From: Cytobacillus oceanisediminis 2691
GTDB taxonomy: Bacteria; Bacillota; Bacilli; Bacillales; Cytobacillaceae
Length of the DNA stretch: 64,000 nt
Assembly (NCBI RefSeq): GCF_007678455.1
Contig: NZ_VEEP01000003.1
Location: forward strand, 325,569-389,568
Direction: 5' to 3'
In this document: one piece after another, positions 371-926 of the stretch
How the letters are laid out: every line of letters begins with the position of its first letter
Position numbering within the stretch: position 1 is the first letter of the stretch
The notes under the pieces: model-generated
What the model saw: only the letters and a program-made list of their open reading frames with translations
Databases searched by the model: none
What the model was told of the DNA's origin: nothing
Translations under genes and position numbers: made by a program

Positions 371-398
371 AAAAAAAAAGAGGCCGAAGCCCCTTTTT
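371..398. terminator. Bidirectional terminator after the glutaredoxin gene
   Basis: A GAGGC/GCCCC stem closed by a four-base loop (UUCG on the minus transcript) is flanked by an A-run on the left and a T-run on the right. The minus-strand transcript ends GGGGC-UUCG-GCCUC followed by nine U, a textbook intrinsic terminator for the glutaredoxin gene. Confidence 0.85.
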
Positions 399-410
399 GT
401 TGTTTAAAAC

Positions 411-644
411 TTATTTATTCACATACTGCATGAGCGTATCCGGGTCAAAACCAAGAACCCAGTAGCCATTCACTTTCGTTTGCGGCACACCCATCTGCCC
501 AGTTTCTTCAACCAGCTTCTGTGCAGCTTGTTGATCGTATTGTACATTAACTTCTTTGTAGTTTAATCCTTGACCCTCAAGGAATTGTTTCATCATTGTG
601 CAGTAAGGTCAAGTGTTTGTTGTGTAAACTGTAATATCATTCAT
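411..644 (-). CDS. Glutaredoxin-family protein with in-frame UGA at the first active-site Cys (putative selenoprotein)
   Basis: Starting at the ATG at 644, preceded by AAGGAGG at ideal spacing, the frame reads MNDITVYTTNT, then TGA (609-611), then PYC, and continues open to 411. Length is 77 residues including the UGA-coded one. The thioredoxin fold is complete: first strand, [UGA]-Pro-Tyr-Cys redox site, and the Gly-Val-Pro cis-proline motif near residue 55. Homologues carry Cys-Pro-Tyr-Cys, so UGA sits exactly where the nucleophilic Cys belongs, the usual position of selenocysteine. A hairpin fitting the bacterial SECIS pattern follows (567-583). A naive gene call would start at the internal Met-Met at 596 and lose the active site. 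The alternative is a recent nonsense mutation or a read error (TGC/TGT to TGA); the SECIS-like hairpin argues against that but does not exclude it. Likely role: NrdH/Grx-like thiol-disulfide exchange in the cytosol. Confidence 0.75.
567..583 (-). promoter_or_regulatory. SECIS-like hairpin downstream of the in-frame UGA
   Basis: On the minus-strand mRNA, TCCTTGA pairs perfectly with TCAAGGA (7 bp) around a GGG loop. The loop begins 32 nt after the UGA at 609-611. The described bacterial SECIS model, as I remember it, wants a stem with a small apical loop, a G in its first two bases, and a UGA-to-loop distance of about 16-37 nt. All three hold. Confidence 0.6.
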
Positions 645-683
645 TTCAAATGCCTCCTTAAAGTTTGTTATACCCTATAATGT

Positions 684-712
684 ATTATCCCGGTTATGCT
701 AAATTTTTGCAA
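684..712 (-). promoter_or_regulatory. Sigma-A promoter of the glutaredoxin gene
   Basis: Minus strand: -35 TTGCAA (707-712), 17-bp spacer, -10 GATAAT (684-689). The start codon lies about 35 bp downstream of the predicted +1. Confidence 0.6.
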
Positions 713-926
713 AAAAGATGCACCGGGATACCATTGTTTTTCCCTATTTCCACGAAAAAAAACAGGATGGGAGGTATCGTTTACATCACGGCAAGAACGA
801 TGCTGAGCGAGGCAAAAACAATAATATTGTGAGAAAAACCTGATTTTCCCCTGCATCCCTAATTGTATTATATTAAGAGCCATCAGATAGGCCTGATCTT
901 AAAATGCCAGGGATAAGATTCGTTTA

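Follow-up and report, generated by a model that had tools for sequence, protein, structure and literature searches.

Does a TGA codon in the middle of a small glutaredoxin frame end translation, or is it read as selenocysteine (Sec)? This question is raised by a gene in the window, the 64,000-nt stretch of DNA analysed here (C332:325569-389568 of a 4.9-Mb genome). A sequence-only reading had put the gene forward as a candidate selenoprotein, and this proposal is supported by the Sec machinery of the genome, by the alternation of codons at the TGA position among homologues and by a conserved hairpin. We put the probability that the gene encodes a Sec-containing glutaredoxin, with codon 12 read via SelB and the hairpin, at roughly 0.94; the part of this explanation that concerns an origin within Bacilli is less sure. 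The features of the locus are as follows.

411..644, minus strand: glutaredoxin gene, 77 codons plus TAA, with an in-frame UGA and the motif U-P-Y-C (reading frame, Pfam, AlphaFold2)
609..611, minus strand: TGA codon 12, probably read as selenocysteine, first position of the UPYC redox motif
600..602, minus strand: TGC codon 15, Cys of U-x-x-C, the same in all 25 rows of alignment A1
567..583, minus strand: SECIS-type hairpin TCCTTGA-GGG-TCAAGGA, 7 bp, G-initial triloop, -7.6 kcal/mol
653..659, minus strand: Shine-Dalgarno AAGGAGG (sequence)
375..398, minus strand: intrinsic terminator, 10-bp stem, TTCG loop, T run
684..713, minus strand: weak sigma-70-like promoter match, not above chance

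Reading frame and predicted protein

On rereading, the minus-strand frame MNDITVYTTNT-UGA-PYCTMMKQFLEGQ... extends from the ATG at 644, behind its Shine-Dalgarno sequence, to the TAA at 413-411, and its single inner stop is the TGA at 609-611 in UPYC, just as the sequence-only reading had described it. The same reading had assigned the gene its own promoter and terminator. The terminator stands (398-375, 10 bp and a T run), but the promoter is not distinguishable from chance; the match covers 9 of 12 consensus positions, and such matches number 3 versus 1.9 (s.d. 1.3) in shuffled sequence. If the UGA is not decoded, a start at Met17 would yield a 61-residue product, the truncated protein that had been foreseen.

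The full-length protein scores 65.2 bits against Pfam Glutaredoxin (PF00462, cut-off 22.9), and an AlphaFold2 model computed with 25 aligned homologues (mean pLDDT 95) has the element order E-H-E-H-E-E-H, in agreement with a thioredoxin-type fold. PDB chains 4tr0 and 4tr1 (‘Glutaredoxin 3’) match at E values of 5e-11 and 1e-9; we take 4TR0 and 4TR1 to be structures of the Sec-glutaredoxin of Alkaliphilus oremlandii. The best-scoring NCBIfam model is TIGR02196 (GlrX_YruB), which aligns over the full length with 85.0 bits when Sec is scored as Cys, just below its cut-off of 88.55. The protein also resembles the Uxx-star proteins (NF041212 and relatives), which are small and glutaredoxin-like with Sec at the same place; its score against NF041212 Uxx_star is 47.5 bits (cut-off 66). 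Unlike Uxx-star family 1 (NF041114, given as UxxT in a table excerpted from PMC13188914), it keeps the second Cys, as UxxC.

A Cys paralogue, 69% identical, lies in the same genome at C332:514104-514328. The genes around the Sec loci are not conserved: when 13 ORFs of one reference locus were compared with 36 loci, the best recurred at 7 of 29 Sec loci. Genomic context thus gives no hint of a substrate, and we rejected guilt by association from neighbours. We also rejected a plasmid or phage gene, as the best match was 62.7% among 103 plasmid records and 40% among 4 phage records, collections in which records close to the window's own genome may be absent.

A hairpin at SECIS distance from the UGA

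In bacteria, SelB with Sec-tRNA binds a hairpin and Sec is inserted at the UGA (excerpts of PMC1794560 and PMC13188914). The bSECIS model, as set out in the excerpt of PMC13188914, specifies a loop of 3-9 nt, a stem of 4-16 bp, a G in the first two loop positions, a distance of 16-37 nt from the UGA and an MFE of at most -7.5. The perfect 7-bp hairpin with a GGG loop that the sequence-only reading had reported is present at 583-567, 25 nt from the UGA to the stem and 32 nt to the loop. Scoring it as a bacterial SECIS element had been suggested as a check; compared by hand with the excerpted criteria of PMC13188914, it fits the published model (3-nt loop, 7 bp, GGG, 32 nt), with a free energy of -7.6 that is barely within the limit of -7.5.

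If the TGA were an ordinary stop, in a pseudogene or created by a sequencing error, the hairpin would be there by chance. We estimated this chance by holding the protein constant and redrawing synonymous codons 20,000 times. Of the redraws, 0.075% contained a G-initial triloop on a 7-bp Watson-Crick stem at an allowed spacing; the figure was 0.26% when any triloop was accepted and 0.37% for loops of 3-7 nt. Under loose rules (G-U pairs, loops of 3-7 nt), a 7-bp stem arose in 19% of the redraws, a point in favour of an ordinary stop, and a loose stem is found somewhere in range in 8 of 78 Cys genes. Because the loose-rule stem arises this often, we consider the hairpin of a single gene to be modest evidence and not decisive; what is decisive is its conservation in register across genes.

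The 7-bp stem is in register in each of the 43 distinct TGA genes, a set that includes damaged copies, versus 2 of 78 distinct Cys homologues of at least 60% identity. Among the TGA genes, the codons for F21, L22, E23 and Q25 are constant and that for G26 differs once in 43, while the codons at these five sites vary among the Cys genes. For six-codon runs of the TGA genes, synonymous entropy falls to 0 bits within codons 17-25, and the run of codons 21-26 has 0.03, compared to a median of 1.07 for all runs and 0.97 for the lowest run of the Cys genes.

Two diverged Sec glutaredoxins from other families of the order (L207 and L208; ∼50% identity, motif U-P-H-C) carry a hairpin in the same position in which two pairs are changed on both sides, that is, compensatorily. 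Across 21 distinct sequences, 147 of 147 cells are paired, 4 of them with both-side changes, and the covariation score was reached by none of 500 shuffles; the bare count of both-side-changed pairs (2) was matched in 28 of 500 shuffles and also in one slid control. This signal comes from L207 and L208, as six of the seven pairs are invariant in the main clade and the remaining one varies once, on one side. Conservation in register, rarity under strict rules and the frozen synonymous codons lead us to reject a chance hairpin, and, judged from these sequences, the hairpin is under selection.

Distribution of the gene and Sec machinery of the genome

A homologue at E 1e-15 or better is present in 92 of the 193 genomes sampled from the family, and 40 genomes have a copy in which one TGA is the only inner stop. 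In the window's genus, the TGA copy is found in 20 of 21 genomes, the exception being 66% complete, and a TGA match also occurs in five genomes of other families in a 397-genome sample of the order. Mesobacillus subterraneus, M. selenatarsenatis and several Neobacillus are among the carriers with a name. The sequence-only reading had placed the gene in an aerobic spore-former; however, the genome has a Sec-type formate dehydrogenase, and species of Neobacillus, a genus that shares the gene, are called facultatively anaerobic in abstracts. There were 122 matches in the family, of which 91 were read (30 loci, 60 fetched sequences and the G000 paralogue), with two weaker ones added later, and the homologue alignment also took in 20 loci of the order sample (L187-L206). 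All homologues aligned at codon 12 have TGA, TGT or TGC, and the in-frame UGA is aligned with the catalytic Cys of the homologues; this is the Cys/UGA alternation that the sequence-only reading had proposed to look for. All 20 TGA-bearing genomes of the genus have a second copy without an inner stop, with Cys in all 18 that were read.

Some copies are damaged elsewhere. L063 (Salirhabdus sp. Marseille-P4669) and L190 (G564) keep the TGA and the hairpin and have a TAA near the start that breaks the frame, either a decaying copy or an upstream change, and L061/L135 show further damage at the C-terminus.

A pseudogene would be consistent with the further damage in these two relatives (L063/L190 and L061/L135). 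We nevertheless judge an ordinary stop, in a pseudogene or by error, to be extremely improbable. The recurrence of the TGA in many genomes means that it is not a sequencing error, a concern that had been raised at the outset. Moreover, it is the only inner stop of those 40 family copies, it alternates only with Cys codons, and conservation covers the protein as well as the synonymous codons beneath the hairpin.

The genome is equipped to decode UGA as Sec. The sequence-only reading had named selA, selB, selC and selD as the genes to search for, and all four are present. Two tRNA-Sec genes pass the cut-off of 47 bits, with 56.1 and 50.9, and both are tRNA-SeC(tca) according to ARAGORN:

C332:395489-395581: tRNA-Sec copy L009, 5.9 kb beyond the window
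C332:406070-406162: tRNA-Sec copy L010, 16.5 kb beyond the window

The tRNA-Sec model gave 17 matches, and only the two over the cut-off were counted; below it, the model also responds weakly to ordinary tRNAs and gives such signals in 14 control genomes. selA is located at C22:194846 (568 bits, cut-off 268) and selB at C477:22679 (362 bits, cut-off 242), while selD, identified from its frame and motif alone, adjoins selA in divergent orientation (L018, C22:185000-204999).

The two tRNA-Sec copies, with 1 mismatch in 93 bases, flank a segment of ∼10.5 kb that contains an AAA nuclease-like gene, a GIY-YIG-like gene and two transposase-like genes (named by eye), and the duplicated segment looks like an island inserted at selC. 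A genome of the same species (G075) has a single tRNA-Sec copy. Duplication of selC is recurrent in the family, as several genomes have 2-3 tRNA-Sec matches over the cut-off (e.g. G091, G153 and G160).

Other genes of this genome, members of selenoprotein families, also have an in-frame TGA. selD has an in-frame TGA at the catalytic position of its G-U-G-C-K-I motif, and of the two hairpins 3' of this TGA, only the second resembles that of the glutaredoxin, with 7 bp, the G-initial triloop GTT and 33 nt from the UGA, nearly the glutaredoxin geometry; SelD itself is thus a candidate selenoprotein. One formate dehydrogenase gene (C477:80417-82438, over the family cut-off) and a relative (C466:139616-140368, below the family cut-off) each have one in-frame TGA followed by His, a known context in formate dehydrogenases, and in both a stem with a GGUCU loop, read by eye, lies 18 nt from the UGA. 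With the glutaredoxin, selD and the two formate dehydrogenase-type genes, the genome has at least four candidate selenoproteins. For Bacillales, three selenoprotein families are counted in the excerpt of PMC1794560.

Of the 193 family genomes, 172 are positive for selA, and the number is again 172 for tRNA-Sec, so the Sec trait is the rule in this family and not the exception. All 40 genomes with the TGA gene, counted from listings and checked against 20 of the 21 negatives for each of the two genes, are positive for both. The co-occurrence has a Fisher P value of 0.0056, with kinship not corrected for; we treat it as supporting evidence only, because the trait is this common in the family anyway.

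Two further ways of using the UGA do not require selenium. It might be read through by a near-cognate tRNA, or it might be a regulatory stop that yields an 11-residue peptide and a 61-residue protein, started internally, that lacks the first catalytic residue. An internal start might be suspected from the Met-Met at codons 17-18 in 43 of 43 TGA genes, but Met17 is also present in 77 of 78 Cys genes. Selenium-free readthrough is at odds with a hairpin that fits the SECIS model and with a genome that encodes the Sec machinery and has further members of selenoprotein families with an in-frame TGA. We therefore consider both very improbable.

From the frame, the UGA at the catalytic position, the conserved hairpin and the Sec machinery, all read from sequence, we infer that Sec is inserted and takes part in catalysis. 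SelB-GTP and Sec-tRNA-Sec would dock on the hairpin, whose stem begins 25 nt past the UGA, and codon 12 would be decoded as selenocysteine to give a 77-residue U-P-Y-C enzyme. In UxxC enzymes, Sec is the nucleophile and the Cys resolves the bond. Sec12 would then be the attacking nucleophile, and Cys15 (TGC 600..602), presumably the resolving cysteine of U-x-x-C, would supply the resolving thiol. Because the genome keeps the 69% identical Cys copy, the Sec form probably adds a selenium-dependent activity to that of a basal Cys enzyme, either faster or differently aimed.

Relation to other Sec-glutaredoxins and origin of the Sec codon

Sec-containing glutaredoxins (UxxC, PF00462) are reported from Geobacter sulfurreducens, Alkaliphilus metalliredigenes and Moorella in excerpts of PMC1794560 and PMC13188914. 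The selenoprotein glutaredoxin of Clostridium (Alkaliphilus) oremlandii has been characterised (Kim 2011; Lee 2014, in the excerpted references of PMC13188914), and, judged by the title of a reference there, its partner is a Sec methionine sulfoxide reductase. The window's genome has two MsrA-like matches, one over the cut-off, and neither has an inner stop; it thus differs from A. oremlandii in lacking a Sec-MsrA among these two matches, and we rejected a partnership of that type. The gene is like the Sec-glutaredoxins listed in these excerpts in its UxxC at the glutaredoxin active site, in the hairpin after the UGA and in its PF00462 domain; it is unlike them in its Bacilli host, in the distance to the SECIS loop (32 nt versus 23) and in its place among Bacilli Cys glutaredoxins in the tree. 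Among the paper titles listed in literature searches, we found no report of a Sec-glutaredoxin in Bacilli.

The sequence-only reading had such proteins known from a few anaerobes. The kind is indeed known, but it is not rare in the phylum: in a sample of 398 genomes, one TGA is carried by 51 of the 110 matches. What looks new is a Bacilli clade that is nested among Cys glutaredoxins and has a 32-nt register. Outside the family there were 49 TGA rows, of which 45 were read (5 loci, 40 fetched), all from other classes of the phylum, presumably in large part clostridia and their relatives. In 39 of the 45 genes read, a stem of at least 6 pairs with a G-initial triloop places the loop 23 nt after the UGA (typically GAAAGA-GUU-UCUUUC), 6 have no 23-nt hairpin, and none has the hairpin at 32 nt. 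By the same definition (at least 6 pairs, G-initial triloop), the 32-nt register is found in 43 of 43 Sec genes of the window's clade, and in L207 and L208.

On a quick protein tree (140 rows, 74 columns, many open forks), the window's clade (27 rows, SH-aLRT 95) is placed among 53 other Bacilli Cys rows and separate from the other-class rows (92). L207 and L208, which form a second Sec lineage of the order and are diverged, branch outside the Bacilli Cys rows. A single clade of all Sec rows was rejected (AU P value of 0.0019). The damaged L063, L190, L061 and L135 and near-identical rows were left out of the trees, as was L014 from the protein tree.

On the DNA tree (97 rows), built without codon 12 and codons 20-27, four TGT genes (L113, L188, L120 and L130) fall inside the Sec clade (clade support 98/88). 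L113 (= L045, Niallia endozanthoxylica) and L188 keep a complete 7-bp stem, with a loop that starts with T in L188; L120 and L130 are without the full stem. The genome of L113 (G003) still has selA and tRNA-Sec. This DNA topology favours the four as Sec genes that likely reverted to Cys. A constraint that groups the Sec rows and keeps the four Cys rows out was not rejected (AU P value of 0.82 on protein, with an even higher likelihood, and 0.167 on DNA), and a clade of Sec rows alone appeared in 0% of 200 DNA bootstrap trees, a bootstrap that is not settled. Since the AU tests allow the four to branch just outside the Sec clade, reversion is likely and not proven. The hairpins left in L113 and L188 resemble the remnant SECIS elements of other families in which Sec-to-Cys changes are on record (Zhang and colleagues, excerpt of PMC1794560).

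The split in register (32 versus 23 nt), the nested position of the clade and the rejection of a single Sec clade suggest a separate gain of Sec, through a Cys-to-Sec change inside Bacilli. Alternatively, Sec could descend from the common ancestor of the other-class Sec-glutaredoxins, in which case the SECIS moved by 9 nt and the Bacilli Cys forms are losses. Change counts on the tree cannot separate gain from loss, L207 and L208 branch outside the Bacilli Cys rows and yet share the 32-nt register, and losses with remnant SECIS, such as those in the excerpt of PMC1794560, have precedent. Against common descent stand the same three results, namely the two registers, the place of the clade among the 53 Bacilli Cys rows and the AU test on all Sec rows, and we regard it as unlikely, though a serious contender.

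We lean somewhat towards an independent gain, in which Bacilli acquired the Sec-glutaredoxin from the Cys form with a new SECIS three codons further downstream, several later Cys forms arose, two with a leftover hairpin, and Sec and Cys paralogues came to stand side by side in Mesobacillus and kin, as a selenium-dependent and a selenium-independent version of one enzyme, outside the strict anaerobes from which selenoproteins are best known. This separate origin is less sure than the remainder of the explanation.

In dozens of Bacilli genomes, annotation that halts at the UGA conceals what is probably a selenoprotein. The clade is a finely sampled record of Cys/Sec exchange, with both forms of one 77-residue enzyme; it also offers sister copies within a single genome and SECIS elements in two registers, and some of its Cys genes have an apparent leftover SECIS. 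Gain and loss of Sec, and the benefit of Sec beside a Cys enzyme, thereby become testable in one strain.
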